From an uncultured Clostridia bacterium (GTDB lineage: Bacteria > Bacillota > Clostridia > Oscillospirales > CAG-272), in assembly GCA_947632285.1 (NCBI GenBank), contig CANROT010000011.1, positions 1 to 32,156 of the forward strand: DNA of 32,156 nt, read 5' to 3'. A program made the translations under genes and the position numbers. Of the stretch, positions 12,365 through 32,156 are shown piece by piece; positions within the stretch are counted from its first letter, which is position 1, and each line of letters starts with the position of its first letter. Below the pieces are notes generated by a model, which ran no database searches, was not told the origin of the DNA, and worked only from the letters and a program-made list of their open reading frames with translations.

Positions 12365-14343
12365 TAAGGTGTTCCGGCGTCACAAAATCTTACGGAGAGG
12401 GCGATGTGCTCGATTCGTTTTCGTACACGTTCGGGGACGCGGGATTTTATCTTCTGCTCGGGGAGAGCGGGAGCGGGAAGACGACGCTTTTGAACGTCGT
12501 CTCCGGAATGATACCGTTCGATTCCGGTGAAATAGAGGTGTGCGGGCGGAAATTTTCGGGCGCGGTCGACGCGGTCGATATGGACGCCGCCGGGTGCGGA
12601 TCGGACTATATAACGCAGGACACGTTTTTTGTCGATTTTCTGACGGTCGGCGAGAATCTCCGCCTCATTCGCGACGACAAACCCAGAGTTGAAGACGTCC
12701 TTATGCGCGTCGGGCTCGGGGGGAAAGAGGAGATGCACCCGCCCGAGCTGTCGGGCGGGGAGCGCCAGCGTCTCGCGATGGCAAGGGCGCTCATGACCGA
12801 CGGGCGGGTGCTGTTTTTGGACGAGCCGACCGCGTCGCTCGACGCGGAAAACAAGCGCGCAGTGTTCTCGCTCATAAGGGAGATATCGGCGTCCCGCCTT
12901 GTTATCTGTTCGTCGCACGACGCGGAGGCGGAGGCATACGCGGACCGCGTGATCAGACTTGAAAAGGTCGCGCATAATGATGCGCATAATGTCTCGCAAC
13001 ATACTGCGAGGCGCGCAAAAAAGCGCCGCGAAGTAAAAAAGCGCCCGATGCGGGAGCTTTGGCCCTTTTTGAAAAAGTGGTCGTCGTCAAAGGGGCGCGC
13101 GTTTGCGCCGGATATATGTTTTTGCGTTTTCCTCACGCTCGCGCTGTGCCTATTGATGATCGCGGACACGCCGCGGCGAAAGTTAGACGCAAACGCGGAA
13201 AATCTCTACCGCATAAATGTCGTGAAGGTCAGAACGGAAAATGACCGCGCCGAGGACTACGCGCTGCTCGACGGGCTCGACGGCGTCCGCGATATAATAC
13301 CGGAATACGGCTCGCTCCTGCCCGACCTCGGCGGCGAATATGACCCGGACACGGGCGTTTTCGAGGGGACGGAGGAGGTCGAATATGAGCTCACGGATCA
13401 GCACGCGCTCCCGGGAGAGGCGGCGCTGTTCCCGTTTTCGGACCGGATCGAATACGGCACGTATTTTACCGGCAAAGATCAGATGATAATCACCGACGCA
13501 TACGCCCGATATCTGTGCCCCGGCGACCCGGGCGCGGCGGTCGGGCGGACGTTCGTGAAAAATCTCTACGGGCTCGGGGAGACGGAGCTTTTGATCGTCG
13601 GCGTGCTCGGGCCGATGGACGATTTTGAGTACAGGTACTTTCAGGTCGCGGGCGGCGGCGTCGCGGACCTTTTTTCCGAATACGACGCGGCCGTCTCGGA
13701 GACGAAGACGCACGAGGACGAGTTCTACATAAACGGCGACCTCTTCGATGAGTATGCGAAGGGCGAATATTTCGGCGTCGGCGCGCGGCGGTCGTATTAT
13801 CTCTATTTCGACGGATATCGTGAGACCGTGGAATTTCTCGAAAAAAACGCGGAGCTCTTTGAGGCGCGCGGGTTTTACGGCATTCCGTTCGCAGACCGCG
13901 AATTTGTGATGCCGGTGTTTGAGGGGCTGTCGTACATACTTCTGCCGCTGTCTGCGCTGATAACGCTTTTGTCCGTCGTGTTTTACGCTTTTATCGTCAA
14001 AACGGAGCTTTCGTACAACAACGGCTTTGTTTCGGCGTTCAATTACGCGGGCTTTACGGTGATGCAGGCTGTCCGCGGGCTCGTGCGGCTGAATCTGCGC
14101 CGTTTGTTTGTCGCGTTTGCGGTCTCGGGCGCGTGCGCCGCCGCGATAAGCGTCGGCTTGAACCTCTTAAACAGGCGGTTCGCGTTCGTACCGTTCGAGC
14201 TTTTCACGTATAATGTCCCGCTGCTCTTCGCGTCGGCGGCGGCAGTTGCCGTGTCGGCAGCCGCAGCGGTGAATTTCTTCCTGCGCCGCCTTAAATATAA
14301 GAGCTGGTACGAGAACCTGATAGCGAACAGGGATCTTTTGTAA
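12361..14343 (+). CDS. fused ABC ATPase / FtsX-like permease (MacB-type architecture)
   Basis: Walker A GESGSGKTT, signature LSGGERQR, Walker B VLFLDEPTASLD, then one TM, a large exofacial domain and three C-terminal TMs. Confidence 0.88.
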   Translation: MIRCSGVTKSYGEGDVLDSFSYTFGDAGFYLLLGESGSGKTTLLNVVSGMIPFDSGEIEVCGRKFSGAVDAVDMDAAGCGSDYITQDTFFVDFLTVGENLRLIRDDKPRVEDVLMRVGLGGKEEMHPPELSGGERQRLAMARALMTDGRVLFLDEPTASLDAENKRAVFSLIREISASRLVICSSHDAEAEAYADRVIRLEKVAHNDAHNVSQHTARRAKKRREVKKRPMRELWPFLKKWSSSKGRAFAPDICFCVFLTLALCLLMIADTPRRKLDANAENLYRINVVKVRTENDRAEDYALLDGLDGVRDIIPEYGSLLPDLGGEYDPDTGVFEGTEEVEYELTDQHALPGEAALFPFSDRIEYGTYFTGKDQMIITDAYARYLCPGDPGAAVGRTFVKNLYGLGETELLIVGVLGPMDDFEYRYFQVAGGGVADLFSEYDAAVSETKTHEDEFYINGDLFDEYAKGEYFGVGARRSYYLYFDGYRETVEFLEKNAELFEARGFYGIPFADREFVMPVFEGLSYILLPLSALITLLSVVFYAFIVKTELSYNNGFVSAFNYAGFTVMQAVRGLVRLNLRRLFVAFAVSGACAAAISVGLNLLNRRFAFVPFELFTYNVPLLFASAAAVAVSAAAAVNFFLRRLKYKSWYENLIANRDLL

Positions 14344-14356
14344 GGAGGGCGGCAGA

Positions 14357-16243
14357 ATGGAGCTGATACTTGAAAATGTGTCAAAAAGCTACGGGCGGCG
14401 CGTGATATGCGGCGTGTCGTACACGTTTTTGCCGGGAAAGCTGTACGTTATAAAGGGCGTCAGCGGCTGCGGAAAGACGACGCTTTTCAACATCATCGGC
14501 GGCGTTATGGAGGATCACGGCGGGCGCGTCACGCTCGGCGGGCTCGACGCCGCGGAGGACCGGAAGGAGTACAGAAAAAAGGTCGGTTACATATATCAAA
14601 AGAGCCTGCTCTTGTCCGGGGTGACGGTGCGCGACAATCTCTTGCTGATAAGAAATGACGCGGCCGCCGTATCGGCGCTCGCGGAAAAGCTCGGCATAAA
14701 AGAACTCCTTGACCGGACGCCGGACGCCATGTCCGGCGGGGAACGCCAGCGCGCCGCGATAGCGCGCAGCCTTCTGAACGGCCCGGACCTGCTCCTTGCG
14801 GACGAGCCGACCTCGTCTCTCGACGCGGAAAATTCGCGCCGCACGGCGGAGCTCCTCGCCTCATTGAAAAATGACGGCAAAATAGTTCTCGTCGCAACGC
14901 ATGAGACGTGTTTTGACGCGCTCGCGGACGAGATATTATATCTTGACTACGGCGTCATAGACCGTATCGACGTGCGCGAGCCGCGCACGGGCAGCATATA
15001 CGGCGAAAATAAAAAAAGCGCGCCCCCGACAGAGAGAGGGCGGCGCGGCATAAACCTTTTGATGTTCGCGCTTCGGCGGCGCCGCGCGTCACTTCGCTTG
15101 TCGGCGCTTTTGCCGTTCGCGCTCGTGATGTTTCTCGTGATGCTCGTCTCGGCGGCGGAGAGCGAATTTGAAGCGGAGTACGTGCGGTTCGAGGCGTCAA
15201 AGACAATATCGGACCTTATCTGCACGCGGGCGCCGGTCGATTCGCTCGACGAAAAATATAGGTCCGCGCTGCGGTATTATTACCCGTATTACGCCGAGGA
15301 CGGCGGCACGGTCGCAAATTATCTCGCCGACAGAAAGGACAGCGTTTTCTCGCTCGACGGAATGATAAAGTACGGGTCCTTCCCGGAGGCGGCGGACGAG
15401 ATACTCGTCAGCGCCGAATACGCCGCGAAGCACGGCGGCGCCGGCATCGTCGGGAAAACGGTTCGCTTTGCGGGGCGCGATTTCGTCGTTTCGGGCGTGA
15501 CGTATTCGGTCGATAAAGATGAGCCGGGCAGGAGCGCGGAGTTTTTGTCGCGGTACGAGGAAGATTTTTACTACCGCTGGTATCTCGGCGACGACGAGGG
15601 GGCGAGCGTAATATACATTCCGCACGACACGCTTGCCGAATTCGGCAAAATGCGCCCCGAAAAGGAGAATTACAAGGGTATGCGGCAGATCTCGTACCCC
15701 GGTCTGTTCTCGAACGCGGAGGCGGTGCGCGCGTTCCGCGAGTGGCTGAGTCCGAGCTTCGACGAAAGCGAGCTCCCGCCCGGTTTCAAAGCGCCGACGA
15801 CGGTGATAAATAATTTTGACATGAAGGTGCAGACGCTGCAAAAATCGCTCGACGCCGTCGCGCTCGTCCTGCTCGCGTTCTTTTACGTATGCTTTTTGAT
15901 CTTCTGCATCTTCATTCGCATGAGCGTCTCGACCGAGCTATATTACCGCCGCCGCGAGATAGGTTATCTTCGCCTGTTCGGCGTCGGCGAGGGGCGCGTC
16001 GGCAGAATGATACTGTACGAGTATATGTGCAGGTTCGCGGCGTCGTTTGTCATGGCGGCCGTCATGTTCGCGCTTGCGGACGCCGCCTATGCCGCATGTT
16101 TCGGCAGGTTTTTGATGTTCAACGTCCTGCACGTCACGTCGGCGCTTTCCGGCGCGCTCGTCTTCTACGCCGCAACGGTCGCCTCGTCCCTGATCCCGGT
16201 AATGCGAAAGAAGATAATTGAGTTGACTCGGGGGAACTTTTGA
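14357..16243 (+). CDS. fused ABC ATPase / FtsX-like permease (MacB-type architecture)
   Basis: Walker A GVSGCGKTT, MSGGERQR, LLLADEPTSSLD, ATHE H-loop; C-terminal permease half; TAAGGAGG upstream. Confidence 0.88.
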   Translation: MELILENVSKSYGRRVICGVSYTFLPGKLYVIKGVSGCGKTTLFNIIGGVMEDHGGRVTLGGLDAAEDRKEYRKKVGYIYQKSLLLSGVTVRDNLLLIRNDAAAVSALAEKLGIKELLDRTPDAMSGGERQRAAIARSLLNGPDLLLADEPTSSLDAENSRRTAELLASLKNDGKIVLVATHETCFDALADEILYLDYGVIDRIDVREPRTGSIYGENKKSAPPTERGRRGINLLMFALRRRRASLRLSALLPFALVMFLVMLVSAAESEFEAEYVRFEASKTISDLICTRAPVDSLDEKYRSALRYYYPYYAEDGGTVANYLADRKDSVFSLDGMIKYGSFPEAADEILVSAEYAAKHGGAGIVGKTVRFAGRDFVVSGVTYSVDKDEPGRSAEFLSRYEEDFYYRWYLGDDEGASVIYIPHDTLAEFGKMRPEKENYKGMRQISYPGLFSNAEAVRAFREWLSPSFDESELPPGFKAPTTVINNFDMKVQTLQKSLDAVALVLLAFFYVCFLIFCIFIRMSVSTELYYRRREIGYLRLFGVGEGRVGRMILYEYMCRFAASFVMAAVMFALADAAYAACFGRFLMFNVLHVTSALSGALVFYAATVASSLIPVMRKKIIELTRGNF

Positions 16244-16280
16244 AAAAGTTCCCCCGAGACCCCTTCAAAACTTTTTATGG
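16227..16280 (+). repeat. hairpin-plus-tail intergenic element, copy 1
   Basis: CTCGGGGGAACTTT (16227-16240) / AAAGTTCCCCCGAG (16245-16258), 14-bp perfect stem, then tail ACCCCTTCAAAACTTTTTATGG. Confidence 0.75.
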
Positions 16281-25137: not shown

Positions 25138-28100
25138 TTATTGCTCGGCGGTACCCGAGCCGTCGTTTTCGCGATATCCGACGTTCTTCAGTACAGGGAG
25201 CGCCCCGTCGGTGATCTGCCATGCATCGTCTTCCCACAGCATTGTGTTGTGTATGAAATCGGCAGACATGAATTGCTCGTTCGGAACGATGAAATCATCT
25301 GCAAAGATGACATTAAAACCGCAGTCCTCTCTGAAATAGCTGTTTATATCTTTATAGCCGTTCAAAAAGTCATAGGGGACGCCCCATACCGTTAAAGTAT
25401 CACTGTTTTCAATTTTGGAGGCGGAGATCGTACCGGCGAAGAAACAGTTTTTCAGATGTGGCGCACATGCCCCAAAATACGGGTTAAGTCCCCCGACGTA
25501 GGCATAACCGTATGAATTACCATCTTCCTCCGGCAGACTAACGTAAATATTCATCGCGGAATAGCTGTCGGTGATCTCGACGTCCACTTTGCTGATGGTG
25601 ATCCCTGTGAGCCCGCCCGTGTAAATATGCGGTTTGCTTGCGGAGGAATATCCCGCAGTCGTCACAAATTCAATTGAACCGTCGGTGAAGCATTCCGTTA
25701 TCTTGGCCGTTTCGCCTTCCCACTTTCCGTAGTCCCACTTAACGCTTCCGTATATTCCGCCTATAAGACATTTATCTCCAAAATCCGGGAAATTTTTATG
25801 ATAGAAGTTGCTGGGGTCGGCTTCAGAGGGCCGGTTTGTATCATCAGGCGTCCCGTCAGTGCTGCCGCATTCGATATGTATGTCGCCGCTGAAGTATGTA
25901 CGCGTGATATTTATCCCTTCGGAGATCGATCCGGAGATACCGCCGGCAAACAGTCGGACGGCGTCGTAATAAATCTTCGATTTTATATCAAAGGACAGCG
26001 TTGAACATGAATATGAGATATCGTCCGCCTGCCAGCCGGCAATGCCGCCGATGATCGGACACGGTGTCTCGTCCGTCGGATATCGGTTGATCACGGTGAC
26101 GATTGCGATGCCGTCAACGGAGCACCGGGAAAGTTGACCTTGTGCCTCCCCTGCGATGCCGCCGAAATAATGTGCGACGCCTGCCGAGATATTTGCTTCC
26201 GAAAGGCGGCAGTTTTTGATCTCGCCGCCGGATTTGACGCAGATCCCGGCAAGGCTGCGAACATTGATATCTCTGACCGTGAGGCGGGAAACGCTGCAAT
26301 TTTCGATATGCGCCTTGTCCGTCTGTTCGATACAGATCCCGGCGATGTCGCGCTCTTCAAAGTCGTCGTCCGGGGTCCCCGACAATTCAACGTCGGAAAC
26401 GGTTATGCCCGAAACGGAGCCTTTGTTTATGGTGAAAGCGCCGCTGAAGCCGCCGTAAACGGTCAGTGCAATATCCGAGACGGAGCATTCGGCGACGGTG
26501 CTGTCGGCGAGGTTTTCATATACGAGCGCCGCAAAGTTTTTCATCTCTCCGCGGACTTTTGTGACCGAACACGAGCGGACGACACCGTTATTCGAATGCA
26601 CTATCCCTGAAAATCCGGCGTCGGCAGACTCGGAGGTGACGCCCGATACCGTGCAGTCTATGATCTGCCCGTTCTGTTTATTCGATCCGATCAGGGAAAA
26701 GCTCTCTCCCGTTATGTGCAGGTCTTCGAAACGTATATTCTTGATCGTGCCTTCGTTTTCTTCTATCCAATATTCTCCGCTGCCGGTGATCCCGCGTACT
26801 GCGTGTCCGTTTCCGTCAAGAGTCCCGTGAAAGGAGCCGTTGATCGGATCAGACGCGTTTGTAAGATCTATATCGGAGGTGAACATAAACGATGCGCCGT
26901 TATGCTTTTTGATATATGAAATATCGTCTGCGCCGGAGATCTCTATCGTGCCGATACCGTTATTAAAGTGTACCGACGCCGCAATGAACATTGCCGAGGC
27001 TCCGATGGCGGCGGCAGGGACGAGAAAAGCGGATATAGCGCGCAAAGCACGGGAAAAGGCATAGCTTCTGTAACCGTTGCGCTCGAGATTCCAGGCTATG
27101 GCGCCGAAGAAGAGCACGGCTCCGGCAGCCAGCGAGATAACTGTCGCGAGCGTGGCATAAATACCGACATTATACGGCAAAAGCCGCGCGGGGTCAAAAT
27201 AGTTCAGAAGCGCGGATATGAGGAGAAAAGCCATGACCGCAAGCGATGAAAGACAGAACGCAACGGAGAGGTGCCCTGAAAGTGTCATCTTTCGCCTATC
27301 CTCTTTTTGCTTCTGCTGTTTTTTGACGATGATGGCGTCGAGCGTCCTCTGTGCGCTCTTGCGCAGCGTGTCGAGGCTCGCCGCCTCTTTTTCGCAGTAT
27401 GCGCGGAGCTCCCCGATGCTTTTGTCCGCAGCCGCCTTTACTTTCTGCGGCTCCGGCGCAAGGTCTGTCGCTTTGTTAAGATAGGGCAGGTTGTTCGCGC
27501 GCGTCTTTTCGGGATATTCGCGCAGCCTTGCGGACTCATTCGCAAGCTTGTCGAAAAGCGCTTTTGCACGTTCCTCGTCGCCGCGCGAAAACGATGCGAA
27601 ACCGAACGCATTCAAACCCGAGAGCCACTTTCGGTCTTCTTCGGATAATGACGGCTTCGGCCGCGAAGATTCATTCAGCAGAACGAACCCCAAATAAGGG
27701 CGCCAACCGTTGGGGCGCTGTTTTATCAGGAGCTTATACATCTCGGCGGACGGCGGGAGATCCTCGAGGCGGTCGAGGAACGCATTTTTTTCATTCGTGC
27801 AGGCATCGGCGTCCGCGCCGAGCGCCGCGGCGGAGTCAAAAAGCTCGCAGACAAAGCCCGCCCACACCGTGCGCGATGCGGCATCGAGCAGCGACACGCG
27901 CTTTGCGAGGAACATGTATCTGTCACACGGCAGGCTCGGTTTTCCGTCGTTTGGGTCTTTGCAGTTTGCCCAAAGCTTGGCAAGACGGCGGCTTTCATCG
28001 ACCGACCGGGAGTTGCCCTTCGGGTAGATCAAAGCGAGCATTTTGTCAAGCGTTTTCGCCCTATAATGCTTTAATGTGTCAAGAGCGCCCGCAAGGTACT

Positions 28101-28734
28101 TGTCACCTTCGTAAAGGCGGCTCATTTCCTCCAGCGCAAGGAACGTGTTCTCCGGCGAGCTGTTATTTTTGCATGATGTAAGGAGCTTTTTTTCGAGCGC
28201 CGACAGCGGCTCCGAAAATCCGGGAAACGTGAGATACAGCGCGGCGCGCAGAGAGGCTGCGCGGTAGTTCCCGGCGAAAAGACAATCCATAAATCGGAGG
28301 TGACACGCATATCGCGACCGCTTTGCGCACTCCTTGAATCTGGACTTTTCGTCATCGCTGCCGACGCGGCAGGCAAGCGCGAAATTTTCGTCTTTTTCTA
28401 TGCATACGCCGAGGTCGATGAGGGCGTTGTCATCTCTGCATTGGTGATTTGCCAAAAGCAGCCCCCAATATGCCTCTGCGTCGGCGGGATCGGATTTGAG
28501 AGTTTCGTTAAAAAATCTTGCCGCGCGGTCGAATTCTGCCGTCATAAGCATATTCTTTCCGCGTATCGTCATCGGCACGGAGCGGCCGGGTGCGCTTCTC
28601 AGCAATTCGAGCGTCGAAAGGTTGTTGTCCGGGCTTGGCTGTACGTTTCCGCACCGGGGGCATTGGACGGTGGATTTTTTCTGTTTATCCGGGACGGGGA
28701 CAGCGTAGCCGCATGCGGAACATGCTGTGGTCAT
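25138..28734 (-). CDS. zinc-ribbon / TPR-like / multi-TM / beta-helix (GLUG-like) protein
   Basis: Start MTTACSACGYAVPVP...CPRCGN at 28734 preceded by GGAG; AEAYWGLLLANHQC; three TM segments; C-terminal repeats such as IIDCTVSGV, VRSCSVTKV, IENCSVSRL. The upstream part of the ORF to 28944 is probably not translated. Confidence 0.75.
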   Translation of the reverse strand: MTTACSACGYAVPVPDKQKKSTVQCPRCGNVQPSPDNNLSTLELLRSAPGRSVPMTIRGKNMLMTAEFDRAARFFNETLKSDPADAEAYWGLLLANHQCRDDNALIDLGVCIEKDENFALACRVGSDDEKSRFKECAKRSRYACHLRFMDCLFAGNYRAASLRAALYLTFPGFSEPLSALEKKLLTSCKNNSSPENTFLALEEMSRLYEGDKYLAGALDTLKHYRAKTLDKMLALIYPKGNSRSVDESRRLAKLWANCKDPNDGKPSLPCDRYMFLAKRVSLLDAASRTVWAGFVCELFDSAAALGADADACTNEKNAFLDRLEDLPPSAEMYKLLIKQRPNGWRPYLGFVLLNESSRPKPSLSEEDRKWLSGLNAFGFASFSRGDEERAKALFDKLANESARLREYPEKTRANNLPYLNKATDLAPEPQKVKAAADKSIGELRAYCEKEAASLDTLRKSAQRTLDAIIVKKQQKQKEDRRKMTLSGHLSVAFCLSSLAVMAFLLISALLNYFDPARLLPYNVGIYATLATVISLAAGAVLFFGAIAWNLERNGYRSYAFSRALRAISAFLVPAAAIGASAMFIAASVHFNNGIGTIEISGADDISYIKKHNGASFMFTSDIDLTNASDPINGSFHGTLDGNGHAVRGITGSGEYWIEENEGTIKNIRFEDLHITGESFSLIGSNKQNGQIIDCTVSGVTSESADAGFSGIVHSNNGVVRSCSVTKVRGEMKNFAALVYENLADSTVAECSVSDIALTVYGGFSGAFTINKGSVSGITVSDVELSGTPDDDFEERDIAGICIEQTDKAHIENCSVSRLTVRDINVRSLAGICVKSGGEIKNCRLSEANISAGVAHYFGGIAGEAQGQLSRCSVDGIAIVTVINRYPTDETPCPIIGGIAGWQADDISYSCSTLSFDIKSKIYYDAVRLFAGGISGSISEGINITRTYFSGDIHIECGSTDGTPDDTNRPSEADPSNFYHKNFPDFGDKCLIGGIYGSVKWDYGKWEGETAKITECFTDGSIEFVTTAGYSSASKPHIYTGGLTGITISKVDVEITDSYSAMNIYVSLPEEDGNSYGYAYVGGLNPYFGACAPHLKNCFFAGTISASKIENSDTLTVWGVPYDFLNGYKDINSYFREDCGFNVIFADDFIVPNEQFMSADFIHNTMLWEDDAWQITDGALPVLKNVGYRENDGSGTAEQ

Positions 28735-28900
28735 GATGCGTTTTCTCCATTTCGGGTAATTTCGGCATTTCTTGTTAATATAATAGCATAGACGTCTATA
28801 TATTGTCAACTTTAGGACAGCATTTCGGCGCTTTTTGCATATATCTTTGGTGCGCAGCGCTGCCGCACCCGTGACCGTGGATCGATGATATGCAGAAACA

Positions 28901-28941
28901 AAAAACGATCCGCTCACGCAAACGCAGAGCGGATCGTTTTT
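28901..28941 (-). terminator. intrinsic terminator of the SLC13-like permease gene
   Basis: AAAAACGATCCGCTC (28901-28915) / GAGCGGATCGTTTTT (28927-28941), 15-bp perfect stem, 11-nt loop. Confidence 0.85.
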
Positions 28942-28947
28942 CATGAT

Positions 28948-30362: not shown

Positions 30363-30443
30363 CCGGGGGGAGTGCAAAGATGGGGCGTGACGCCCCATCT
30401 TTGCACTCCCCCCGGACCCCCTCTTCAAAACTTTTTATTGACT
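30363..30443 (+). repeat. hairpin-plus-tail intergenic element, copy 3
   Basis: CCGGGGGGAGTGCAAAGATGGGGCG (30363-30387) / CGCCCCATCTTTGCACTCCCCCCGG (30391-30415), 25-bp perfect stem, then tail ACCCCCTCTTCAAAACTTTTTATTGACT. Confidence 0.85.
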
Positions 30444-30461: not shown

Positions 30462-31853
30462 TTACGAAAATTCTATTGATTTGAGGTGGCCGCTGCCGCC
30501 GCCGGAAAAGCAGAGGTAGACGGCGCGGACGCCGTCCGGGATATATACGGGCGCAGTGTGCGCCTACCAGATATTGGAGCCGCCGACGGGGACCTCGCCG
30601 AGGACCTCGCCGCCCGGTGACGTTCGAACCGTGAATTTGCCGCCGATGTAGCCGCGCGTTCTGACCGTGAGCGCGCTGACAGAGCGAAAATCGAGGTATT
30701 TGAAGCCGATGACGGCGCCGTCCGCGACGTTTGCGATATAGCCGACCTCGCGGTCGCCGTCGCGTCCGTCCTGCACGACTTTCGGGCAGTCAACGCCGAA
30801 TCTGCCCGGCGAGGACGAAAGATACAGGCAGCACGCGAGATACGCCGGGTACTCCGCCTTTGCCGGGAGCGGTCCGCCGAGCCCCTGAGAGGTGATCTCC
30901 GCCTGGAGAAATCCGCCGTCCTCCGTGCGCGTCAGCACCTCGGCGCAGCCCTGCCGCGAATACCACGTGCCGTTCGTGTGGCGGTGATAAAATATGAGAT
31001 ACCTGCCGCCGACCTCAACGACGGAGCCGTGATTGTTCGCGATATACGCGGACGGGACGTCGACGTCCTTGTACGTGCCGATGCCGATGTCGCCGTTGCT
31101 GACGAGGACGCCGCGGTACGTGAACCCTTCGCGCGGCGACTTCGAGGTCGCGTAACAGAGCTCGTGCATGTGCTCGGACGAGTAGATGAAGTAATATGTA
31201 TCGCCGAATTTGCGTATCGACGGCGCCTCAAAAAAGGCGTGGTTTTGAAAACACGTTCCCTCGCTGTAGGAGCTGCCGGGCACGATGATGACGGGCGGCT
31301 CCCGCACGGTCAGCATATCGGGGCCGAGCACCGTCGCCATCGCGCCGTGGCGGCTCTTGTCGCCGCGGCCGCAGAAGCCGGTGTAAAGGTACGTGAGCTC
31401 GCCCTCGGTCAGAACGCCCGGATCGAACTGCGGCTCGTCCCCTTCGCGGCAGCCGAGCAGCGTCCCGTCCGGGTAGTGAACATAGCCGAGGAAGGAAAAC
31501 TTCCCGGCGGGCTCGTCACAGACGGCGACGGAGACGACGGAGACATGATCGAGGACGTAGTAGAGGTAATAGCGCCCGTCGGGGCCGCGCGTCACGTCCG
31601 GGGCGTAGAGGCACATCGAGCCGTCCCGGTTATAGGGGTCGGCGGTCTTTTCGTATATGACGCCCTCATACCGCCAGTCCCCGAGGTCGTCGACGGGGGC
31701 GGACCAGCAGACGTAGTCGCCGAGGCAGAAGACGTGCCCGTTGTACATGTCGTGCGAGCCGTAGACGTAGACGCGGCCGCCGAAGACGTAGGGCTCCCCG
31801 TCCGGGACGTATTCCCACGAGGGGAGATAGGGATTTACGGGTCTGTTTTTCAT
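30462..31853 (-). CDS. glycoside hydrolase family 43 protein with C-terminal CBM6-like domain, interrupted by in-frame TAG
   Basis: GH43 core (YVFGGRVYVYGSHDMYNG, YAPDVTRGPDGRYYLYYV, FFEAPSIRKFGDTYYFIYS, HGSVVEVGGRYLIFYHRHT). TAG at 30564-30566 is followed in frame by AHTAPVYIPDGVRAVYLCFSGGGSGHLKSIEFS and TAA at 30462-30464. Confidence 0.85.
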
Positions 31854-32156
31854 AAAGTCTCCTTTGTGCGGTCGACGAGCATACGCTCAAAGTCGGAGCA
31901 CGCGCCGATCGTGTCGATACCGTCCGGCGTAAAGCGGACGCCGGCGAGCTCTTTTGTGTACGGCTCCCAGCGCGGGAGCGGCTCGCCGTCTATATCGGTG
32001 CCGTTCGGGTCGCCGGAGCGGATAAAGTTGCACCAGTAGTTACACATGCGGCGGGCAAGGTCGTAGTATTTGCCGGTGAACGGGCGGTGGCACTTCGCGA
32101 GCGTTTCAAAGAAGAACCAGAGGTCGCTCGAGTGAAAGCTGCCGGGCGAGTCGTCC
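31850..32156 (-). CDS. carboxylesterase type B family protein, C-terminal part (truncated by window edge)
   Basis: DDSPGSFHSSDLWFFFETLAKCHRPFTGKYYDLARRMCNYWCNFIRSGDPNG...LPRWEPYTKE; 4-bp ATGA overlap with the GH43 start. Confidence 0.85.
   Translation of the reverse strand, partial: DDSPGSFHSSDLWFFFETLAKCHRPFTGKYYDLARRMCNYWCNFIRSGDPNGTDIDGEPLPRWEPYTKELAGVRFTPDGIDTIGACSDFERMLVDRTKETL

Follow-up and report, generated by a model that had tools for sequence, protein, structure and literature searches.

Does an amber codon inside a bacterial gene, with the reading frame apparently intact on its far side, reflect a mutation, an error in the assembled sequence, a leaky stop or a change in the genetic code? 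The question is raised by a 32,156-nucleotide stretch of DNA (hereinafter, the window, meaning the whole stretch that was analysed) from an uncultured gut Clostridia bacterium, in which a gene for a plant-sugar-cutting protein with a GH43 domain and a CBM6-like domain carries a premature TAG near its 3' end.

The interrupted frame and its relatives

As the original prediction had it, the TAG interrupts a frame that runs on to a downstream TAA; the in-frame sequence past the stop, up to the TAA, reads AHTAPVYIPDGVRAVYLCFSGGGSGHLKSIEFS (Table 1). The gene starts with an ATG at 31853 on the minus strand, sharing the sequence ATGA with the TGA of the upstream gene, the product of which we take to resemble a type-B carboxylesterase. 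Separate translation of the 33-codon tail was rejected because the tail contains no in-frame ATG, GTG or TTG.

Table 1. Features of the GH43 locus, with positions numbered along the window
Feature	Position	Strand	Remarks
Entire GH43 + CBM6-like gene, reading through the TAG	30462..31853	-	463 codons + TAA; relatives align over the full length
Open part up to the TAG	30564..31853	-	429 codons; covers the GH43 catalytic domain (residues 45-313, Pfam PF04616) and the greater part of the C-terminal beta-sandwich
In-frame TAG, codon 430 of 463	30564..30566	-	The codon is CAG in L031/L002, the relative with 96% identity
Post-stop tail	30465..30563	-	33 codons that all relatives conserve; covers the end of strand 426-436 as well as strand 441-462
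TAA	30462..30464	-	Terminator at the place where the family usually ends
Perfect inverted repeat, terminator-like	30364..30414	-	Arms of 24 bp around a 3-nt loop, then a T-rich stretch; 47 bases past the TAA
3' end of the upstream gene	31850..32155	-	Overlaps the start of the GH43 gene in ATGA; truncated where the contig ends

The read-through protein was aligned to 94 loci of other genomes, which correspond to approximately 90 distinct genes given that four pairs represent the same gene twice. In all 94 loci, position 430 is occupied by a sense codon, namely, Glu in 60, Thr in 11, Gln in nine, Cys in three, His in three and a few other residues in the remainder. None of these relatives ends at Trp429, so a family that naturally terminates at this tryptophan, a prospect that the original prediction itself had raised, is rejected. 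Trp429, directly 5' of the stop, is invariant in an alignment of 37 sequences, as are Gly441, Gly451 and Gly453 past the stop, and the tail aligns residue by residue with every full-length relative; judged from the aligned sequences, this continuation of the frame is not chance.

The nearest relative (locus L031, that is, CANQMS010000073.1, the same as L002), from a Clostridia metagenome-assembled genome of the same genus, encodes a protein with 96% identity to that of the window and has CAG (Gln) at codon 430; the next one (L032, the same as L003), at 83% identity, also has CAG. Given the CAG in the nearest relative, a single C-to-T transition explains the TAG of the window, and such a change is of the commonest kind because transitions account for 50 of the 65 differences between the window gene and L031. 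The proposal that the ancestral codon was CAG thus stands with regard to the nearest relatives, with the refinement that the residue favored at this position across the family is Glu. The L031 gene has the same length as the window gene, overlaps the same upstream gene and is followed, after its stop, by a hairpin similar to the one in the window; the two loci differ in the CAG at codon 430 and in the sequence past the downstream hairpin.

The hairpin belongs to a dispersed repeat that consists of AAAAAGTTTTGAAG followed by a GC-rich hairpin, the arms of which often begin with CCGGGGG, whereas the inner part varies (often CTTTTTCAAAAG). The window contains this repeat at 30436-30360 (minus strand), 3' of the GH43 gene, and at 16276 (minus strand), and 12 more copies are present elsewhere in the genome (L113, L116, two in L172, L184, L186, three in L199, L217 and two in L250); the 14-base leader has 14 exact copies in 1.55 Mb, mostly intergenic. 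Possibly, this is a terminator-like or REP-like family. Elsewhere in the window (25138-28944, minus strand), there is a 1268-codon open reading frame with a zinc-ribbon-like start, apparent membrane segments and long C-terminal GLUG/beta-helix-like repeats, as recognized by eye.

Domain architecture of the read-through protein

The membership of the protein in GH43 is supported by a match to the Pfam profile PF04616 that scores 68.6 bits, well above the cut-off of 32.2, and Asp18, Asp144 and Glu209, which, going by general knowledge of GH43, we take to be the catalytic residues, are invariant across the 37 aligned sequences. The original prediction described the tail as the last strands of a CBM6-like domain. 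This description holds in so far as the tail aligns with all relatives and supplies the last strand of a modelled beta-sandwich; the Pfam CBM_6 profile (PF03422) matches residues 373-456 of the read-through protein with an E-value of 3.8e-6 and 27.7 bits, just below the cut-off of 28.9 bits, and in the same search the match is gone from the truncated protein. Modelled with AlphaFold2 (mean pLDDT 87.4, pTM 0.88, tail blocks 93-96), the read-through protein has a beta-sandwich as its C-terminal part; the position of the TAG is within strand 426-436, and strand 441-462, the last one, comes entirely after it. According to this model, truncation would cut the sandwich within its second-last strand and remove the last one, leaving the GH43 domain encoded whole.

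Recoding of UAG

The in-frame TAG itself is all that speaks for UAG being read as an amino acid, be it Gln or pyrrolysine, across the genome or in part of it. The genome has an intact gene for RF1 (prfA), which scores 507 bits where the cut-off is 423, and a weaker second match is consistent with RF2. The Rfam tRNA model detects 38 tRNA genes in this 94.55% complete genome, and ARAGORN found no CUA, UUA or UCA anticodon among the tRNAs in the genome stretches examined; the one tRNA that is truncated, where contig C60 ends, has, by eye, a Leu-type UAA anticodon. The N-terminal domain of PylS (TIGR03912) was not found in the genome, the Methanosarcina control being positive.

The use of stop codons leads to the same conclusion. 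Of the 1,225 genes predicted in 1.55 Mb of the genome, 109 terminate in TAG, compared with 628 in TGA and 488 in TAA; in the window, TAG ends two of 24 mechanically chosen genes, the GH43 gene included. The rarity of TAG noted originally is thus seen within the window, and together with the genome-wide count it identifies TAG as an ordinary minority terminator. When the in-frame sequence past each stop in the 1.55 Mb was given a codon-usage log-odds score, the GH43 gene had the top extension (score 6.3) among the TAG-ended genes whose extension overlaps no other gene. No other of the 109 TAG-ended genes resembles an interrupted gene, the next-best extensions being unlike protein continuations, and the scan thus indicates that the TAG in the GH43 gene is a single event. 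Judged by eye, the high-scoring extensions past TAA and TGA are for the most part shadow open reading frames or the next gene, lying in the same frame. On the strength of the tRNA set, RF1, the PylS search and the extension scan, recoding is rejected, and we assign it a practically negligible probability. The ranking given by the original prediction, with a recent nonsense mutation or an assembly error ahead and recoding last, agrees with these findings and with the CAG of the relative.

In one other case (locus L115 on contig C5, approximately 13396-15054, minus strand), a 451-codon open reading frame ends at a TGA after a Pro/Thr-rich stretch, with the frame open for 99 codons more. It resembled a second interrupted gene at first sight, but the extension comes after the Pro/Thr-rich tail and its coding score is weak; this may be a broken gene or a separate one.

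Age of the stop

Over the 429 codons before the stop, the window gene differs from L031 at 56 of 1,287 bases, with silent changes in 38 codons and replacements in 15 (dN 0.018, dS 0.139); by this comparison, the gene outside the stop is under purifying selection. The 34 codons after the stop contain 8 differences in 102 bases, with four silent changes and two replacements (dN 0.042, dS 0.227). The density of differences is higher after the stop, but not significantly so (P ~0.08), and accelerated decay past the stop was accordingly rejected. In the protein alignment, the window protein shows no private deviation at columns that are at least 95% conserved in the other sequences, and the gene contains neither a frameshift nor a second stop, so the absence of decay in the post-stop frame noted in the original prediction is upheld. 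The purifying selection and the lack of private deviations imply that the stop is young; as far as the sequences tell, the change would then be either very young or not real.

Nonsense allele, error or readthrough

The reading that we consider probable, although by no means assured, is that CAG became TAG in the assembled strain through a nonsense substitution that is isolated and very recent: the stop is absent from the orthologs and is one substitution away from their codon. Under this scenario, the T would be genuinely present in the cells and translation would normally end at Trp429, with RF1 terminating at the TAG. The CBM6-like beta-sandwich, being incomplete, would probably misfold, and the enzyme would then be destabilised or deprived of substrate targeting, its catalytic domain encoded whole.

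A consensus or assembly error, with the cells carrying CAG and an intact gene and the wrong base introduced through low coverage or strain mixture near the contig end, appears less likely, although it deserves serious consideration. The assembly is a fragmented draft of 213 contigs, and approximately 0.3 kb separates the GH43 gene from the end of its contig, C11, where consensus errors are likelier; the rest of the gene shows no sign of decay; and five of the eight post-stop substitutions relative to L031 fall within nine bases (codons 436-438), as strain mixture could give. On the other hand, a mutation equally yields a single base change, and the excess of differences after the stop is, as mentioned above, not significant.

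Tolerated leaky readthrough, in which near-cognate decoding of UAG would yield a little full-length protein and, over a brief evolutionary period, preserve some of the usefulness of the gene, seems improbable to us. The parts of the gene before and after the stop both look constrained, and a case for frequent transient readthrough in bacteria has been made from sequence, with bacterial genes that contain in-frame stops, one of them a TAG/CAG pair, retaining dN/dS <1 (Belinky et al. 2021, PMC7918605). However, among the genomes compared only this one has the stop, and the constraint seen against relatives therefore mostly predates it; its absence from all relatives means that no conserved recoding signal can be claimed; and no suppressor tRNA was found. 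The further idea that UAG is tolerated in a living population as a leaky stop, giving less full-length enzyme and two forms of it, with and without the complete binding domain, as a transient polymorphism akin to phase variation, strikes us as very improbable.

Implications and comparison with known systems

The case is ordinary, and its significance hardly reaches past annotation. The entry for the GH43 gene should indicate a premature stop rather than a short variant, and the TAG of the window should not count as evidence of an altered genetic code in this lineage. More generally, the case shows how quickly an amber codon whose far side is intact can be classified, by looking at the codon of the nearest relative, the tRNA complement and RF1 and by testing, across the genome, what comes after TAG codons.

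Shulgina and Eddy (2021, PMC8629427) point out that recoding can be mimicked by in-frame stops that transitions create in pseudogenes, which is in keeping with the window TAG. The genes described by Belinky et al. (2021, PMC7918605) are similar to that of the window in that a single step separates CAG and TAG between close relatives and the gene is otherwise under purifying selection; however, their stop is common to several genomes, on which the argument largely rests, whereas the stop in the window is present in one assembly only. The closest solved structure is that of TerARA (PDB 9no3), a GH43 arabinofuranosidase/xylosidase from a termite-gut metagenome, which shares the two-domain architecture of the window protein over the full length, both in structure (Foldseek TM 0.93 and 47% identity to the read-through model) and in sequence (full-length phmmer match, E-value 4.8e-126). 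In TerARA, the conserved Trp is followed by Gln, without a stop, whereas in the window gene the stop stands at the codon for that very Gln.
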